Positions 24,946-32,176 of a DNA stretch of 32,886 nucleotides are shown in pieces. This DNA comes from Anaerolineae bacterium (lineage in GTDB: Bacteria; Chloroflexota; Anaerolineae; Aggregatilineales; Phototrophicaceae). The stretch's first letter is position 1; each line of letters opens with the position of its first letter. The stretch is taken from contig JALOOG010000038.1 of the NCBI GenBank assembly GCA_025454525.1, forward strand, positions 1 through 32,886, given 5' to 3'. The position numbers and the translations under genes were made by a program. The notes under the pieces are model-generated. The model was given only the letters and a program-made list of their open reading frames with translations. It had not been told where the DNA came from and searched no databases.

Positions 24946-25212
24946 ATGGAATTGCTAATTGGTAAACCATCAAAATTATATTCTTGATATTGAAAAGGAA
25001 CCACAACGGGGTGATAAACAGGCGAAAGAACGGTATATTCATTGTGGCCAATTCAACAACATAGTGAGATCATTTTGCAAACTTTTGCAACTCTACTCCA
25101 ACATAAAAAGTGTGCTACCCGTGTTTATGCAGCTAAGGCGATCGAAAAATTTGATGATCCACAAGCTATAGAGTTATTGCGGGAATATCGTCAACAATAT
25201 CCCAACGATTAA
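24946..25212 (+). pseudogene. Frameshifted small HEAT-repeat-like gene
   Basis: An excellent ribosome site (AAGGAGG, five bases before ATG 24946) starts MELLIGKPSK, which soon meets stops. In the next frame the sequence continues (ILDIEKEPQRGDKQAKERYI), then returns to the first frame (IQQHSEIILQTF, VYAAKAIEKFDDPQAIELLR, ending QQYPND, stop 25210-25212). Two compensating frameshifts would restore a roughly 88-aa protein with a HEAT-like repeat. The stop overlaps the RT stop on the other strand. The frame-restored reading is my inference. Confidence 0.5.
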
Positions 25213-26390
25213 TCGGGAAGGCGATTCAATTGTTCACACAACGGACGCGCATGATCTGGGTTTGCCGCATGGATAAACGCGATCAATCCCCCCAGATAAG
25301 CACGAAAATCCGGATGACCGTCCCGATTTTGCGCTTGTAAACCCGTGGCTTGGGCCGCATGTAAAATGGCACGCACCCGCCGTCGCAATTCCCGTGGGGT
25401 ATTGGCACGATCATTCACAACGAGGCCTGTCACCATTTGCCGCGAGGATCGCCGATACACCCGCGTTTTCGCCGGATTCACCATGAACCCACAATCAGCA
25501 ATGATCCGCTCAATGCTACCACGCAAGCTTAACACTTTCGCCGCGTCATCCCCCGAAAAGGTCAGATCATCCGCGTAACGGGTATAGGTGAGATCGTGTT
25601 TTTCGGCCAAGCGACTCAAACGCTGATCTAAACGCCAAGCGACCAGATTGGCTAACATCGGACTGGTGGGCGCGCCTTGGATCAACATCCGACCGCCTAC
25701 ACTGACATGATAACGCTGATTACCTCGCTCAAACGGACGACGATCACGTTCGGTACAGAGCAAGGCCAAAATAGATCCACTGGTGAACCCATAGCCGAGT
25801 CGCATCAGCGCGGCCCGCACCCGTCGAAACGAGAGACTGGGGAAGAAATCTTTGAGGTCAAAATTGAGGACGATCGCCCGTCCAACATGCGGCGCGGCGT
25901 TGCTGTGAATATCACGCTCCCGGACAAACCCGTGCGCGTTAGGGTGAATCGGAGCGCGATCGAGGATCTCATGCAAGATCCGGCGTTGGAGCGCCTTTAG
26001 ATCGCGTTTAGGGGCAAGGATCACCCGTTTACCGCCGCTTTTTTTGCGGATCTCGAAGCGGTAATAGTGCCACGTCGCTTCCACCGGACGATCAAAACTA
26101 TACCAACGCAATTTTGCTAACGAGAGGCCCAACCATTGCGCGAGATCCGCCTCACTTTCAAACGTAGGCATCTGATAGCTTTTTAGCTGTTCGGGGTCAT
26201 CGTGCCTACGGCGATTTTGAGTCGTCCCCCACAAATCCGCGCCATAATAACGGCGATCCCGTTGACGACGCAATTCACGTTGTTGTTGACGCTCATCGCG
26301 TCGTTCTTCGAGCATGATCTCCGTGCGATTGCGCCAAGTCAGTTCCGACTCATGCCAAGTGATCCGCCAATTGTGGAGTGCGTCTGTCAT
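25209..26390 (-). CDS. Retron-type reverse transcriptase
   Basis: A 393-aa RT that should copy part of the adjacent ncRNA into msDNA. RT blocks: RKKSGGKRVILAPKRDLKAL (from 115), catalytic D178 in LNFDLKDFFPSL, GAPTSPMLANLVAWRLD (239-255), catalytic YADD (272-275), and GFMVNPAKTRVYRR. Retron hallmarks are both present: NAxxH as NAAPH (164-168) and VTG (320-322). There is no maturase or endonuclease domain, so it is not a group II intron RT. A charged Arg/Glu-rich stretch fills residues 28-50. ATG 26390 has GGGAG about ten bases upstream; a TTG at 26411 would enter the ncRNA. It lies 165 bp after the SWIM gene, with the msr-msd between. Confidence 0.93.
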   Translation of the reverse strand: MTDALHNWRITWHESELTWRNRTEIMLEERRDERQQQRELRRQRDRRYYGADLWGTTQNRRRHDDPEQLKSYQMPTFESEADLAQWLGLSLAKLRWYSFDRPVEATWHYYRFEIRKKSGGKRVILAPKRDLKALQRRILHEILDRAPIHPNAHGFVRERDIHSNAAPHVGRAIVLNFDLKDFFPSLSFRRVRAALMRLGYGFTSGSILALLCTERDRRPFERGNQRYHVSVGGRMLIQGAPTSPMLANLVAWRLDQRLSRLAEKHDLTYTRYADDLTFSGDDAAKVLSLRGSIERIIADCGFMVNPAKTRVYRRSSRQMVTGLVVNDRANTPRELRRRVRAILHAAQATGLQAQNRDGHPDFRAYLGGLIAFIHAANPDHARPLCEQLNRLPD

Positions 26391-26412
26391 CTGTGGTGAT
26401 CTCCCAAGCAAG

Positions 26413-26551
26413 TCAGATCGCCGCCCGTTACGAACTTCTCTGAAGTGGGTTCCCGCTTGTTCGAGCTGGGAACCACATGAAGTTGTGATCGAGTCTGTTT
26501 TCCGCCACGACGGAACATCGCAGCATTGCGGCTAACGGGACGGCAATCCGA
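26413..26551 (-). ncRNA. Retron msr-msd non-coding RNA
   Basis: Predicted by hand folding of the minus strand. a1 (26533-26551, core GCCGTCCCGTTA) pairs with a2 (26413-26430, core TAACGGGCGGC) over about 18 pairs with one bulged U and two G-U wobbles. G26532 follows the TTA end of a1 (TTAGC), the context of the branching G in the well-known Ec86 retron. The msr part has hairpins CGCA/TGCG (26519-26530) and TTCCG/CGGAA (26500-26515). The msd part is one long hairpin (26433-26484): AACTTC/GAAGTT, GTGG/CCAC, TTCCC/GGGAA, GCT/AGC. The order a1, branch G, msr, msd, a2, then RT is the standard retron layout. Confidence 0.85.
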
Positions 26552-26555
26552 ACAT

Positions 26556-28016
26556 TTATTCCATGATACTGACTCGATCTAAATTTGTCAAATACGGATC
26601 GGCGGCGAAGCGCGTAGCCAAAATATGCTCACATGGGCCGCGTGACATCAAATGCTCACGGAAGAAGTTACAATCACATTGGGCGAAGCGTACCCGCGAA
26701 TCGCGATCAACTGCGACCAGTGTCTCATGACCTGCGACCGATCCCAAAATGCGGATCTCATGTTTGCGCGTTTCGGACGGTGCGACGCTATGCAACGTCA
26801 CCGCGCCGCTTTGAGCCAATTGTTGACCCTGTTGGATGCGTAGATCCGGGGCCAGTAAGGTCTGCCAATCCAGTTTTTCGGCGAATAATTCACGGGAACG
26901 GTAGCGCCGTGAGACCGGATCGTACATGGCGCGCCCCTCACGACATAAACGGAATAAGGCCGCCTCACTTTGAGCAGCATTCAACAAGGTGTGCTGTTCA
27001 ACTTCGGCTGGTTTCAGCGCGTAGTGGGTGATCAAGGCATTGTAGACGCTGGCGATCGCCTCACCGTCGATCGGCGTTTGTGGGGCCAAGAGATCTAACG
27101 CGCTGGTGGATGACCAATCGTTTTTAGCCCACCCCGATAAGACCAAGGTGAATTTATAGGGACCACAGCGGCAAATATAGAAATGTGGCAGTCCGCGCCC
27201 TAATACGCCGATCGTCACCTTGTCCGCATAAGGCAAAACCCGCAATAACACCTCTAAGCGCCGCCGTCCCCAGACGCGCACTGTCCGGGCATAATCACCG
27301 GATGCCGTGTCTTTGAGGAAAAAGACCTTTTCCCAAGGTTCTAACACGACGCTGATCGCCTCGCCGGGCTTAAAGACATAACGCATCCCAGTCGGGGGTT
27401 TACGGACGCGGGTATCCATAAAATAGCGAATCACCGATAACAGATCCACCGGACGGACATGAAAGCTATACGCGGCCATGGTCAAGGCGCTTTGCACTTG
27501 CAGAAAGCCTTTGACCCATGAATCCGGAAGATCAACTTTCTGCTCAAAGTGTGAGGCCGTACCTAGATTCGTCGTGGTCTGCACCGCAAAACCGCTCCGG
27601 CCGATCGTAAAATGGGTGCGACGAGAAGATCGCATCGTCTCGATCGCGCTCCGCAAAGCAAATGTGAAATCGATGTTGGTTGTGCCGTATATCGACTCGC
27701 GTTCGATCTCGAAGGCCTCGTTAGCCGCCGATAAACGCACATAACTTGACCCGTCGGTGCTAAATGCTTCAAAAAACAACTCATCGGGATGTACTGTGAT
27801 CACCGGATCAAGCACAAAAGCACGCGGGGACTCGCGATAATCGCCGATGATCACCTCATGCGTGGCTAACATCAATTGGCGCATCAAGATCGGATCAACC
27901 ACCCGTCCACGAAACTGTACCGGTTGGCGCTGTACATTGGTCGCAAAGGCCATTGAGGACGAATTGAGATCGTTGATCACTTGCGTTTGAGTCTCATAAG
28001 CTAAGGCGACTTGCAT
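26556..28016 (-). CDS. SWIM zinc-finger protein, retron accessory component
   Basis: A 486-aa soluble protein. Near the C-terminus it carries a SWIM-type zinc site CxCx12CxH: C447, C449, C462 and H464 (AQCDCNFFREHLMSRGPCEH). SWIM motifs bind DNA or partner proteins. The rest is a large mixed domain I cannot name; a winged helix is plausible but not shown by eye. It starts inside the esterase gene (23-bp overlap) with AGGAGGAGG at good spacing before ATG 28016. Its last codons hold the ncRNA promoter. With the RT and the solenoid protein it matches what I recall as the WH-SWIM component of type XIII retrons; it probably binds the msDNA or serves in signalling. Confidence 0.85.
   Translation of the reverse strand: MQVALAYETQTQVINDLNSSSMAFATNVQRQPVQFRGRVVDPILMRQLMLATHEVIIGDYRESPRAFVLDPVITVHPDELFFEAFSTDGSSYVRLSAANEAFEIERESIYGTTNIDFTFALRSAIETMRSSRRTHFTIGRSGFAVQTTTNLGTASHFEQKVDLPDSWVKGFLQVQSALTMAAYSFHVRPVDLLSVIRYFMDTRVRKPPTGMRYVFKPGEAISVVLEPWEKVFFLKDTASGDYARTVRVWGRRRLEVLLRVLPYADKVTIGVLGRGLPHFYICRCGPYKFTLVLSGWAKNDWSSTSALDLLAPQTPIDGEAIASVYNALITHYALKPAEVEQHTLLNAAQSEAALFRLCREGRAMYDPVSRRYRSRELFAEKLDWQTLLAPDLRIQQGQQLAQSGAVTLHSVAPSETRKHEIRILGSVAGHETLVAVDRDSRVRFAQCDCNFFREHLMSRGPCEHILATRFAADPYLTNLDRVSIME
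26563..26591 (-). promoter_or_regulatory. Dedicated promoter of the retron ncRNA
   Basis: On the minus strand TTGACA (26586-26591), exactly 17 bp, TATCAT (26563-26568). RNA would start near 26556, about five bases before a1. It is embedded in the last codons of the SWIM gene (LTNLDRVSIM). Confidence 0.7.
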
Positions 28017-28917
28017 CTGATCCTCCTCCTGCTAAATGTTGACGGGCGAACACACCGATCGCTTGCATCGCTTGGCGCGTCTCTGGAAAATATGGGAAAA
28101 AGTGCCATGCGTGTAATAAGCCCGGCCAGACCTCTAATTTCACTGGGACACCGGCCGCTTGGGCGCGGTGGGCAAATTGTTCAGAGTCACTCAACAATAT
28201 TTCGGTATCCGTCACTTGGATCAAGATCGGCGGCAAACCTTTCAGATCGGCAAACAGCGGCGAAAGCAGGGGTTCACGTAGATCGTATTCGCCCGCATAA
28301 GCATCGGCATACCGCTGCAAGAGATCGGCCGTCACCAACACCTCGGACTCCGCGTTATGATCGATCGAGTCACCGCTTAGGGTGAGATCCAACCAAGGCG
28401 ATAACAAGACCGCAGCCGCCGGCATGGGATCACCCGCATCACGTAAGGCGATCAACAACGCCGCCGCTAATCCACCCCCGGCCGAGTCTCCAGCGATCAA
28501 GATCTGTTGTGGCGAAACGCCTACCGATAGAAGCCAACGGTAGATCGCCATAGCATCCACTAAGCCGTCTGGATACGGATTTTCGGGTGCAAGGCGATAA
28601 TGTGTGAACAGCGCCCGCCCGCCGATCGCTTGAGCGAAGCGAGCCGCGATCCCGTGGTGGACATGCGTCGCCCGCACACAATATCCCCCACCCGGTAAAT
28701 ACAACACCACCCGATCCGGTTCAGAGGCCGGCATATCGATCCAGTCCACCGGCACATGACCGACTTGAATCGGTTCGATCTGAATGCCACGCGGCAAGGG
28801 AATAAAGGTACGGTTGGTCTGTTCACGGATCTGTTCGATCGAATAGTCGTTATAATCCACCCCGCGCAACGAAAAACGCATCATCGCGATCACCGCACGA
28901 GTGAGTAAACTAGGCAT
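27994..28917 (-). CDS. HSL-family alpha/beta hydrolase (esterase) inside the retron operon
   Basis: A 307-aa hydrolase of the hormone-sensitive-lipase family. Nucleophile S145 is in AGDSAGGG, acid is likely D237 in VTDTEILLSDS, and base is H269 in LLHAWHFFP. The oxyanion motif is LPGGGY (74-79), where P replaces the usual H of HGGG but the glycines are kept. TLAPENPYP-like segment YRLAPENPYPDGL is typical of the family. ATG 28917 overlaps the solenoid gene by 8 bp with GGAGG six bases upstream; its 3' end overlaps the SWIM gene by 23 bp. Coupling on both sides suggests it is produced with the retron proteins. It could be a lipid-damaging effector or a passenger housekeeping esterase. Confidence 0.9.
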   Translation of the reverse strand: MPSLLTRAVIAMMRFSLRGVDYNDYSIEQIREQTNRTFIPLPRGIQIEPIQVGHVPVDWIDMPASEPDRVVLYLPGGGYCVRATHVHHGIAARFAQAIGGRALFTHYRLAPENPYPDGLVDAMAIYRWLLSVGVSPQQILIAGDSAGGGLAAALLIALRDAGDPMPAAAVLLSPWLDLTLSGDSIDHNAESEVLVTADLLQRYADAYAGEYDLREPLLSPLFADLKGLPPILIQVTDTEILLSDSEQFAHRAQAAGVPVKLEVWPGLLHAWHFFPYFPETRQAMQAIGVFARQHLAGGGSDASRLSL

Positions 28918-31900
28918 AATTGACCTCCAATTGCACATAGAGTTGAGCAATTTCATCGGGAATGGCTCGGCGGCCATAAAATTCGGCAGCCTCTTTTAAC
29001 AGGGGTAGGATCGACTCCGTGAGACTCGCATCGGCCAAGGCGGCCTGTTTGAGGACACTCAACACCTGTCGCTTGGTTGTTTTGCGGGTGCTGCTCAATA
29101 ACATCACCTTCAAGGCACGTAAATTCTCCTTGACTCGTTGCGCTGCATCAACGCCACCTTGCGTTAAAATCGTCAACGCCAACAATTGCGGATGGATGTT
29201 CAAGGACTCCAACAGACACGCAATCCCATATGGAGAGCGTGTCCAAGCTTCTAAATGGCGCGTGTGGAGGTGTTGCCAGATCGCATGTTTTTCAACATTG
29301 ATCCACCACTCCGACCATTCAAACGGGGCCAAATAACCTAAGATCGCGGCCGCATGTTGGACATAATGTTCGGGGGAGTCTTGATAGAGCTGATCGAACC
29401 AATCGATGATCAGCTGTTCATAGCCTGCCAGTTGCTTTTGAGCAGAAAGATCTGCTTTCTGCTTATACCAACGGCTAGTTGGTGGATAGGCTAGATGAAT
29501 CACGCGATTTAAGCCTAAGAGGGTGCGATACACCAAAACATCCATGAGGGTTTGATCGCCGCGTTCTAAGGCCAACTGCAAAGTACGGAGTTGGGGCAAG
29601 TCTCGTAAAAACCGCTCTAAGAACGCAGATGCAAGTGTCAGATAGCGCTCATAAAACAGATGTGCGATCGGCGGTTCAATCCCCCACCAAGAATGATCCG
29701 GTGCATGGCTGGCGAGGCTGATGAGGCGTGTTTGTACCGCTTCGATCGGTGCATTTGATTCGGCTAATTGTTTGATTTCGTGATTCCATGCCGCCTTATT
29801 TCGCCATAAAATGAGCAAACGATCATAGTTAGCGAGGGACAGATGCAAGCGTAATTCTGGATAAGCATCGACATTCTTGATCCGAAGCAGTAAATCAAGG
29901 TGGGGGCTTAAAAACGGCATCAACTCATCTTGATAATGGGCCAAAAGCTGAAAAAAGCTCACCGGAAGTGTAAAACTCCACTGATTTTGTTGCTGATCTA
30001 AAGTGGCCATTAAACGCGCATTCACATCCGATCCTGACGGTTTTTCGGCCAATAGCGTTTGGATCAACTTCTCCCAACGGCGCATCGGATTCAGACGAAA
30101 TTCGATTGCTTCAAGGAGTGAATGATCGCCACGTTTGCGCGCTAACTTCAAGAGTTTCGAGTACCCTTTTTGATGGTTGTAGCGCTCTTGACCCATGTGC
30201 ATCAGGATAAACGGCTCAAACAAAACCGGATCGCGTTGATATAACTTCACAGCAAGGTCATCTGTTATTGCGTGCCAAGCGTTGGCCCGACGCATCAAGC
30301 GTGCGTGTAAATCGGCATTATTGAGGGGACTATCGATCAAACGTTGCAGATCGGGCAGCCAAGTTTGCCAAGTGTTGGTGCGCCGATACAGCGCTTGAAA
30401 CAGATTTTCATGGCCGTCCGCTTCAGCGCGCTCTAATAACTTCATCAAAACGGGTTTCGATTGCCAGAGGTTGAGGTTTTGTGCGATAAACGCCCCAAAA
30501 AATTCGGGGCTGATCGCGTAAAGTCGTTCGGCCCAAATCTCGGCCCGTTCCGAAAATTCAGTGGGTTGACGGCGGGCGATCGCTTGTAATTCGCGCAATA
30601 AAACGGCGCGATCAAGCGGGAGATCCAATAACCGTTGTAAGCGTGTGGGATGCGTCCAGTCGATATAGCGCTCAAAAAACGGCAAGACCGCTTCCCCATA
30701 CCGATCGATAAACCGTTTCAAAATGGCGGGGTTGATTTGCGCGCTACGTGAGGGAAGGCGTGCTTCTAAGGCCGCCAAGATCTGATCGGCCGGCAGATCT
30801 TGCGTTAAGAGATGTTCCATTTCGGCGTGCCAATCCGCGGCGGTGGCCGTTTTACGGAAAATGCGATTAAACCATTCGATCACCGGGGACTCCTTCCAGG
30901 CCGCAATCAATAAGGGGTAATCGTGCCGTTCATCAAGGTACTGTTCGATAAATGGATAAAATAGAGTCGGATTGTGGCGATAGAGCGCTGCCGCATTTTG
31001 ATCGGTGATTATCGGGTAATGCTTCAAATAGATCCGCGTCGCCTGTACATCTAAGCGATTTAAGATGCGGGCTAAGGTTGAAGCGTCTGGCGCGGAGTCG
31101 ATGGCCATCCCGAGACGCAGATTCCAATCGCTGGAATTGCAAAGATGACGGGCGTAGATCGCCGCAAACACCTCATCTTCTCCGTCCTGTTCGGCGCGAT
31201 CTAACAGGTCTTGGGCAAGCGCATCCGGTTGCAAGTATTGGATAAAAAATTCTTTGAATAAGCCCGGATTTCGCTGATACCCGCGCAATGCCCAACTTTC
31301 GCGCAAGTGGATCATGCGCTCATAACCGCATTCGCGTGCGATCGTCCAGATTTCAGTGACCAACATTTCATCCGAACAGGACAAACTGAACAATGTATCA
31401 AACATGGCGCGGATAAACGCATGGGTCTTTTGTTTTAGATACGGCAAAAGATATTGGCCGAATTGTTCGATCAACGCTGTGAGTAAGGAGTCCGGTAGTT
31501 CACAGGTGAGATCATCGGGGTGGAGTCTGTTCAAGGCCACGGCAATGTTGGCGGGATGATGATCTTGTAACAACGCATTGACCCGTTTTTCCCATTCGGC
31601 GGAGCTGACAAAAGCGCGAAATGCCCGTTCTTTAAAGTTAGTGTTGGGATGATGTTGTTCGACGGTGGTGATAAATCGGTCTAAGGGAGGCGGAGGCGGC
31701 ATAAAATAACTGTAATGCTTGCTTAAGATCCCTTGAAAATACAGCTCAAAGTATGCCGGATCGATTAAATAGAGTTGGATCAACTGGTCTTCGGTGGGTT
31801 GCGCCCAATCGCCATACCGGAGCGCGAGTTTGATGGCGATCTTTTGGATGTCTCGGCTTTTTAAGAAACCGTCAAACTCACGTTTCCAACGATCTGGGGT

Positions 31901-32176
31901 GACTATTTGTTTATATAAGGCTAAAAACAGATCGTGATTCGTTTCTACCAAGGGCAAAAGGGCTTCGATCGCAGCGGTGGGTGCATTTTGCGAGAGATGC
32001 GTCAGGATCAGATCATTAAATAACTCACGATCGCGTTGATACACGGCTGGGGCCCATAACAATGCCGCTTGTCGAAATTCATCTGGAGATTGTTGTGCGA
32101 AATTTTCAAGTGCGTTTAACACTTGCAGATTGTCTCGGTTATTCAGGATGGTTTTAAGGTCTAACTGGAGTTTCAT
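28910..32176 (-). CDS. Large alpha-solenoid (ARM-like repeat) protein, retron component
   Basis: A 1088-aa, mostly helical soluble protein with no enzymatic motif visible. At least six internal repeats share LYxxxPxLFxxFI (tyrosines at about 46, 136, 300, 399, 553 and 646), each followed 50-59 residues later by a W then a helix ending LL (W97, W195, W351, W449, W606, W701). This is an ARM/HEAT-type superhelix, likely a binding scaffold for the RT-msDNA complex or a phage trigger. ATG 32176 fits the start of the first helix; a TTG at 32221 would lie before the predicted start of RNA structure. It is first in the operon and is followed by the esterase with an 8-bp overlap. Size and partners match the ARM protein of type XIII retrons, as I recall them. 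Confidence 0.85.
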   Translation of the reverse strand: MKLQLDLKTILNNRDNLQVLNALENFAQQSPDEFRQAALLWAPAVYQRDRELFNDLILTHLSQNAPTAAIEALLPLVETNHDLFLALYKQIVTPDRWKREFDGFLKSRDIQKIAIKLALRYGDWAQPTEDQLIQLYLIDPAYFELYFQGILSKHYSYFMPPPPPLDRFITTVEQHHPNTNFKERAFRAFVSSAEWEKRVNALLQDHHPANIAVALNRLHPDDLTCELPDSLLTALIEQFGQYLLPYLKQKTHAFIRAMFDTLFSLSCSDEMLVTEIWTIARECGYERMIHLRESWALRGYQRNPGLFKEFFIQYLQPDALAQDLLDRAEQDGEDEVFAAIYARHLCNSSDWNLRLGMAIDSAPDASTLARILNRLDVQATRIYLKHYPIITDQNAAALYRHNPTLFYPFIEQYLDERHDYPLLIAAWKESPVIEWFNRIFRKTATAADWHAEMEHLLTQDLPADQILAALEARLPSRSAQINPAILKRFIDRYGEAVLPFFERYIDWTHPTRLQRLLDLPLDRAVLLRELQAIARRQPTEFSERAEIWAERLYAISPEFFGAFIAQNLNLWQSKPVLMKLLERAEADGHENLFQALYRRTNTWQTWLPDLQRLIDSPLNNADLHARLMRRANAWHAITDDLAVKLYQRDPVLFEPFILMHMGQERYNHQKGYSKLLKLARKRGDHSLLEAIEFRLNPMRRWEKLIQTLLAEKPSGSDVNARLMATLDQQQNQWSFTLPVSFFQLLAHYQDELMPFLSPHLDLLLRIKNVDAYPELRLHLSLANYDRLLILWRNKAAWNHEIKQLAESNAPIEAVQTRLISLASHAPDHSWWGIEPPIAHLFYERYLTLASAFLERFLRDLPQLRTLQLALERGDQTLMDVLVYRTLLGLNRVIHLAYPPTSRWYKQKADLSAQKQLAGYEQLIIDWFDQLYQDSPEHYVQHAAAILGYLAPFEWSEWWINVEKHAIWQHLHTRHLEAWTRSPYGIACLLESLNIHPQLLALTILTQGGVDAAQRVKENLRALKVMLLSSTRKTTKRQVLSVLKQAALADASLTESILPLLKEAAEFYGRRAIPDEIAQLYVQLEVNYA

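Follow-up and report, generated by a model that had tools for sequence, protein, structure and literature searches.

The window, as we call the whole 32,886-nt stretch of DNA analysed here, lies on contig C32 of a 5.2-Mb genome (G000) of an Anaerolineae bacterium. From 5' to 3', its minus strand carries a protein of about 1,090 aa (28910-32176), an alpha/beta hydrolase (27994-28977), a SWIM partner protein (26556-28016), a gap that holds an RNA, and a reverse transcriptase (RT; 25209-26390 from its probable ATG). The ORF tool began the RT at a TTG at 26411. We favour the ATG at 26390 because the nearest relatives, L109 and L111, begin there in the alignment. The best PADLOC match of the RT was RT_XIII at 450 bits, followed by RT_other at 365 bits, and the protein is related to 7v9u, the Ec86 RT (E = 6.2e-40). 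The retron RT motifs YADD, NAxxH and VTG, as defined in excerpts of PMC6868368, are present in this RT and invariant in 14 aligned RTs. Three more reverse-transcriptase matches occur in the same genome, on contigs C13, C207 and C192.

SWIM_XIII (487 bits) was the only PADLOC match of the partner protein. The hydrolase, of the hormone-sensitive-lipase type (Pfam Abhydrolase_3, 182 bits), sits between the large protein and the SWIM protein. At the limits used, tblastn found no match to it in 103 loci or in the relatives' loci, and the gene probably lies outside the retron proper. Profile searches of PADLOC and Pfam returned nothing for the large third protein. Its relatives lie directly upstream of the SWIM gene, with no hydrolase, in L108, L109, L110 and L112, and also upstream in L128, L129 and L131; neither a SWIM nor a large-protein match was found within the 6-9 kb fetched for L113 and L114. 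In size and position the third protein resembles the WGR/HEAT-ARM product encoded at other type XIII loci. A wider homology to those proteins was considered and is not established, with no profile match to WGR_XIII or HEAT-ARM_XIII and hhalign probabilities of 0.2% and 10%.

The initial annotation, which was made from the letters of the window, had read the gap as the msr-msd of a retron. The closing stem that it described is there, on the minus strand, with 18 a1/a2 pairs and one bulged U: a1 spans 26533-26551, with the bulge at 26540, and a2 spans 26413-26430. The TTAGC branch context was likewise found, which makes G26532 the predicted branch (priming) guanosine, and the elements follow it in the order claimed, with msr, then msd, then a2. 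We take the TTAGC and a2 context to resemble that of Ec86. The predicted msd template occupies 26432-26499, between the msr hairpin and a2. A cDNA of about 60-70 nt is predicted, which would start opposite C26432 and end near the msr hairpin. This predicted start is set by comparison with Ec86 and lies within a base of the earlier estimate of about 26431.

The combination of elements had been judged very unlikely by chance, and for the RNA as a whole this was borne out. The whole stretch folds at -59.1 kcal/mol compared with -44.4 ± 3.8 kcal/mol for dinucleotide-shuffled sequences, better than all 200 shuffles (z = -3.85). A scan for a1/a2 pairing at the window's 82 TTAGC sites, both strands included, gave this site 39.6 and the runner-up 24.8; in 60 shuffled minus strands no score rose above 33.0. 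Among the 2,044 TTAGC sites of the loci that were fetched and pooled (2.5 Mb, both strands counted), three unrelated ones scored 39.8, 40.6 and 42.4, so the score is not proof on its own. The msd was also folded separately against 300 shuffles in eight of the 12 copies introduced below. The window's msd gave z = -2.3, with 5/300 shuffles as good; L109 (-3.4), L111 (-4.0), L113 (-5.8), L114 (-5.7) and L131 (-5.4) gave lower values, and L112 (-1.9, 15/300 as good) and L130 (-1.3, 34/300 as good) higher ones. The folds of L130 and L112 barely outdo those of shuffled sequences, which counts against the retron reading. Rfam yielded no match at gathering score across the window; two matches in the gap were discarded as far under their cut-offs (16.2 vs. 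33 bits and 15.5 vs. 95.4 bits).

Relatives of the RT were sought in 396 genomes of the class and in 69 loci from named genomes, and relatives of the SWIM protein in 154 genomes of the order and 350 of the phylum. A covariance model, R1, was seeded with seven RNAs of the same plan; L113 was left out of the seed and later found as a non-seed match. R1 matched five of the 396 class genomes. RT_XIII scores above 430 bits occur in six genomes, which include all five, and each R1 match sits just upstream of that RT_XIII gene. The sixth of those genomes, G161, has instead two copies of a longer RNA, the long class described below. Eight genomes were then picked for a type XIII RT or SWIM gene, one of them (G270) common to both scans; seven of these genomes were matched, and G161 was missed again. 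The window's own genome has one R1 copy. We aligned 12 copies from 11 genomes, including five rows that are not in the R1 seed. The RNA and its structure are conserved among these copies, and the RNA is associated with RT genes: nine of the 12 lie just upstream of one. Three copies are without an adjoining RT, which counts against the reading. Two stand alone on contigs with no RT (L152:3722-3870 and L153:5703-5850), and one is at a contig end in a genome that is 58% complete.

Across the 12 rows, 91.4% of 361 cells pair, and 21 of the 31 modelled pairs are doubly changed (62 such cells). None of 500 shuffles was as high on any measure, and sliding the partner by 1-3 columns left 34-52% of cells paired. 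Because the alignment had been fitted to the structural model, these values lean in its favour. As a structure-free counterpart, RNAalifold on a MAFFT alignment of the first six copies recovered a1/a2, the msr hairpin and two further pairs, with 10 of 24 pairs doubly changed; the msd stem was not recovered in that run. Doubly changed pairs in the 12-row alignment make up 10 of 13 in a1/a2, three of nine in the msr and eight of nine in the inner msd hairpin (26445-26476, pairing 26476-26468 with 26454-26445). The covariance check on gaps upstream of homologous RTs, which had been proposed along with the initial annotation, thus shows matching changes in both a1/a2 and msd. Homologues that kept neither had been set beforehand as the outcome that would speak against it; the opposite was seen, and both are kept. 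The branch G is kept in 12/12 copies, with TTAG and TAGC each in 11/12. In one stand-alone copy TTAG has become TGAG, and its a2 has changed to match.

The same alignment corrected the msr. The two hairpins drawn there at first belong to the minimum-energy fold of the window sequence only, and their pairs are kept in 27/46 and 56/72 cells of the 12 copies. We rejected them for a different, single hairpin at 26504-26524 (26524-26516 with 26512-26504), with nine pairs and a 3-nt loop (TTC), which pairs in 107/108 cells. The 52-nt msd hairpin was upheld in its inner stem. Its outer six pairs fell away, pairing in 25/72 cells, a count that comes from an alignment not fitted to the outer stem. With the msr redrawn, the identification of the gap RNA as an msr-msd is supported by covariation and by the RT_XIII match.

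A promoter-like site that could serve the RNA-RT unit, TTGACA-17-TATCAT, lies at 26563-26591 on the minus strand, inside the end of the SWIM gene, and agrees with the consensus at 11/12 positions. It was the best of 10 sites in a 6-kb scan in which 6.9 were expected. Since the site ends at 26563, transcription of the RNA would begin near the 5' end of a1. Sites of at least 9/12 were found in the 60 nt upstream of 10 of the 12 RNA copies, each score being reached by at most 11/500 random locus pieces. Weaker sites precede L152 (8/12, reached by 27/500 random pieces) and L112 (6/12, 186/500). The window's site ties with those of L113 and L153, among the best of the set. At L114 and L153 the promoter-like site is so near that the modelled a1 would begin slightly before the transcription start.

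Many type XIII loci of cyanobacteria, Myxococcota and other groups carry a longer RNA. In its plan, [TA][TA]GCA is followed by a hairpin of eight pairs and a 3-nt loop; TTGC commonly comes next, and a2 commonly has TTCG or TACG in front of it. In most measured copies 176-180 nt separate branch G from a2, whose first base lies 177-181 nt past the G; the spacing in L047, L049 and L051 is 217-218 nt (first base of a2 at 218-219 nt). These RNAs were found through an msr hairpin flanked by GCAA and TTG/TGC. A scan of 83 RT-bearing loci for an a1/a2 stem closing at TAG had missed them. RNAalifold on 17 of them gave 29 doubly changed pairs among 45 in the msr and msd, in a consensus without a1/a2 pairs from an alignment that took in about a dozen a1 bases. 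Their a1/a2 duplex energies range from -22 to -54 kcal/mol, each the best of several candidate sites and without a shuffled control.

A second covariance model, R2, gave 41 matches to the long-class RNA, spread over 37 of the 69 named loci, 17 of them seed loci. By hand comparison, the 37 include all 36 loci with a tblastn SWIM match, and the remaining one is L082. The other 32 loci gave no SWIM match and no recognised RNA; some of these loci are on short contigs. One SWIM-less locus, L044, has an RT that matches RT_XIII at 660 bits, so there may be a further subgroup. Two long-class copies per locus were seen in L132, L101, L076, L042 and L039. On the window RNA, R2 reached 5.7 bits (E = 0.12), on the msr hairpin alone. 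The window RNA is thus a separate, shorter variant, since R2 misses it. In the reverse search, the best R1 score among the named loci was 19.1 bits (E = 0.061, L037). A mechanical ORF pick placed a gene of 1,021-1,108 aa just upstream of SWIM in 22 of 35 long-class loci, and in the others the frames there were shorter, fused or antisense. The one such gene tested, from L061, matches both WGR_XIII and HEAT-ARM_XIII.

We modelled the SWIM protein with AlphaFold2 from 25 sequences. Mean pLDDT ranged from 78 down to 58 over five models, and the best model had a pTM of 0.79. Foldseek against the PDB listed 50 matches for it, all of them PCNA or 9-1-1 clamp entries, with a best E of 3.7e-11. A second structure aligner superposed 234 residues on PCNA with a Z of 22.0 and an rmsd of 3.0, over residues of about 34-298 in the model. 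In a viral structure library, the main named matches were viral PCNAs. A model of the long-class SWIM protein from L061 (pLDDT 73.6, pTM 0.60) also resembled clamps (Z 20.9, Foldseek E 7.7e-9); it was built from the same sequence set and is therefore not fully independent. At the sequence level the aligned rows share about 8-13% identity. PCNA was not among the matches listed in searches of 25 members against Pfam (25 of 31 families, E up to 1), nor among the nine PDB sequences matched by profile. The protein also differs from PCNA and 9-1-1 clamps in its extra SWIM end and its bacterial retron setting.

Pfam SWIM matches 25/25 members, the window copy at 18.3 bits, just under the cut-off of 19.6, and the motif CxC...CxH is invariant in the members. 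We therefore predict a PCNA-like clamp fold with a C-terminal SWIM zinc finger. In PCNA, helices line the central hole. R46, R251, R253 and R259 show no variation and position 169 very little; all lie in helices of the model, so these conserved basic residues would fit DNA contact. Single members gave weak helix-turn-helix matches, and no catalytic domain was seen.

Among known systems, the locus is most like the type XIII retrons of PADLOC-DB (RT_XIII, SWIM_XIII, WGR_XIII, HEAT-ARM_XIII). RT_XIII is its best RT match and SWIM_XIII the sole match of its partner, and the order third gene-SWIM-RNA-RT is shared. It differs in a third gene that goes unrecognised by the WGR and HEAT-ARM profiles. 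Compared with the long class, its type of RNA has a short msd (96-124 nt from branch G to a2 in eight copies), its RT has a shorter N-terminus, and the clamp region of its SWIM protein lacks a long helical insertion. Retron-Eco1 (Ec86) shares a related RT and the order a1, branch G, msr hairpin with a 3-nt loop, msd and a2, but has other partner proteins; the window also differs from it in having only one conserved msr hairpin and a shorter predicted cDNA. According to excerpts of PMC6868368, the stem bound by region Y of RT-Eco1 has 8 bp and a 3-nt loop, a geometry to which the window's msr hairpin is close, and TAGC is the commonest branch context in characterised retrons. The same excerpts describe the RTs of Mx162, Sa163 and Ne144 as grouping with cyanobacterial RTs and carrying N-terminal extensions. 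The long-class RTs here resemble these myxobacterial RTs in having such extensions; Mx162 and Sa163 differ in their CAGC branch context (PMC6868368). A long-class RNA from Nannocystis exedens (L085:7569-7772), in which a2 starts 178 nt after branch G, would allow a 144-nt cDNA. From that length alone, we guess that it is the Ne144 retron; no published sequence for the comparison was found in the literature searched.

In the one open library that we searched, the type XIII retron appeared only as a PADLOC match in a list, and no paper joined a retron to a SWIM zinc finger. Nothing there, as far as titles and the starts of abstracts go, tied a retron to a sliding clamp. A retron RNA is a known kind of element, and PADLOC itself models msr-msd elements by covariance. 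In that library we could not find in print the short variant, the divergent third gene or the clamp fold, and the novelty of the RNA type relative to published lists of type XIII RNAs is uncertain. The window nonetheless supplies a defined and testable template RNA, short and easily cloned, with a promoter-like site and a branch site, for a type for which we found no experiment. Alongside it stands a second, longer class spread across cyanobacteria, Myxococcota and others. To our knowledge, type XIII would be the first retron with a replication-clamp-like effector, if the predicted fold holds. Such an effector would be unexpected in bacterial defence and invites a direct experiment on the way in which a retron might sense or halt DNA replication.

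Retron RTs prime from a branch guanosine, and msDNA together with the RT restrains the partner. Against this background the gap RNA is very probably the msr-msd of a type XIII-like retron that works by the route proposed here, from promoter to effector. This reading is supported by the covariation, the RT association, the promoter-like sites, a long-class RNA of similar plan, the RT motifs and a clamp fold in two models. The 5.7 bits that R2 gives the window RNA, and the lack of a PCNA family among the sequence matches listed, weigh against it. Transcription of the RNA would start from a promoter of its own in the last part of the SWIM gene, and a1/a2 pairing would put the 2'-OH of G26532 beside the template. 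We propose that the 9-pair msr hairpin is bound by the RT, which would use the msd as template for a branched cDNA of about 60-70 nt with a hairpin under selection. The complex of RT, RNA and cDNA most likely takes up the SWIM partner, which ends in a C-terminus of DNA-binding type, together with the large third protein, and keeps the SWIM protein inactive. Were a phage to upset the cDNA or the complex, the SWIM protein would be freed, act on DNA and stop the infected cell.

The stem ends just before the RT start and is near an RT in nine of 12 copies, as would a leader or attenuator that controls RT translation and is no cDNA template. That reading is very improbable, since L152 and L153 carry this RNA on contigs that have no RT, the branch G and its context are conserved, and in loci such as L062, L065 and L072 other reading frames separate the long-class RNA from an RT that is far downstream. 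A genuine retron RNA whose window copy is decaying and no longer functional is also unlikely, if somewhat easier to imagine. The thought arises because the hydrolase gene interrupts the window's operon, splitting the third component from a SWIM gene that it adjoins in L108-L110 and L112, and the modest msd fold of the window copy agrees with it. The RT, SWIM and third-component frames are nevertheless all open, the RT motifs are intact, and the copy retains its 18 a1/a2 pairs and its 11/12 promoter-like site.

The SWIM protein might be a DNA-binding regulator or scaffold, the retron then acting through gene control or at replication forks and not through release of a toxin. The clamp fold, the invariant CxC and CxH and the weak helix-turn-helix matches all suggest DNA contact, and no catalytic domain was seen. 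We consider this possible, but it sits less well with excerpts of PMC12548924, in which retrons typically hold a toxic effector in an RT-RNA-DNA complex.

The action of type XIII retrons in defence can be put in a more specific form. The RT and msDNA would prevent the clamp-SWIM protein from closing on DNA, phage-disturbed msDNA would release it onto replicating DNA to block the replisome, and in some genomes the RNA would have turned into a separate gene acting in trans. We offer this version tentatively and would not expect it to hold in every part. Unlinked RNA copies raise the question of whether retron RNAs can act in trans at all. In G270 (L111 with L110) and G497 (L154 with L108), the RNA and RT are together while SWIM and the large protein are on another contig, and G541 has a second, stand-alone copy. 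The SWIM-RT junction of G713 (L129:5100-5620) has no RNA, the best R1 score being 16.0 bits for a 51-nt piece elsewhere, which counts against the retron reading; that genome has its RNA copy on another contig, without an RT. Ahead of the RT start, the L129 junction still has a CGTAACC stretch, which may be a remnant of a2 or the result of an assembly collapse.
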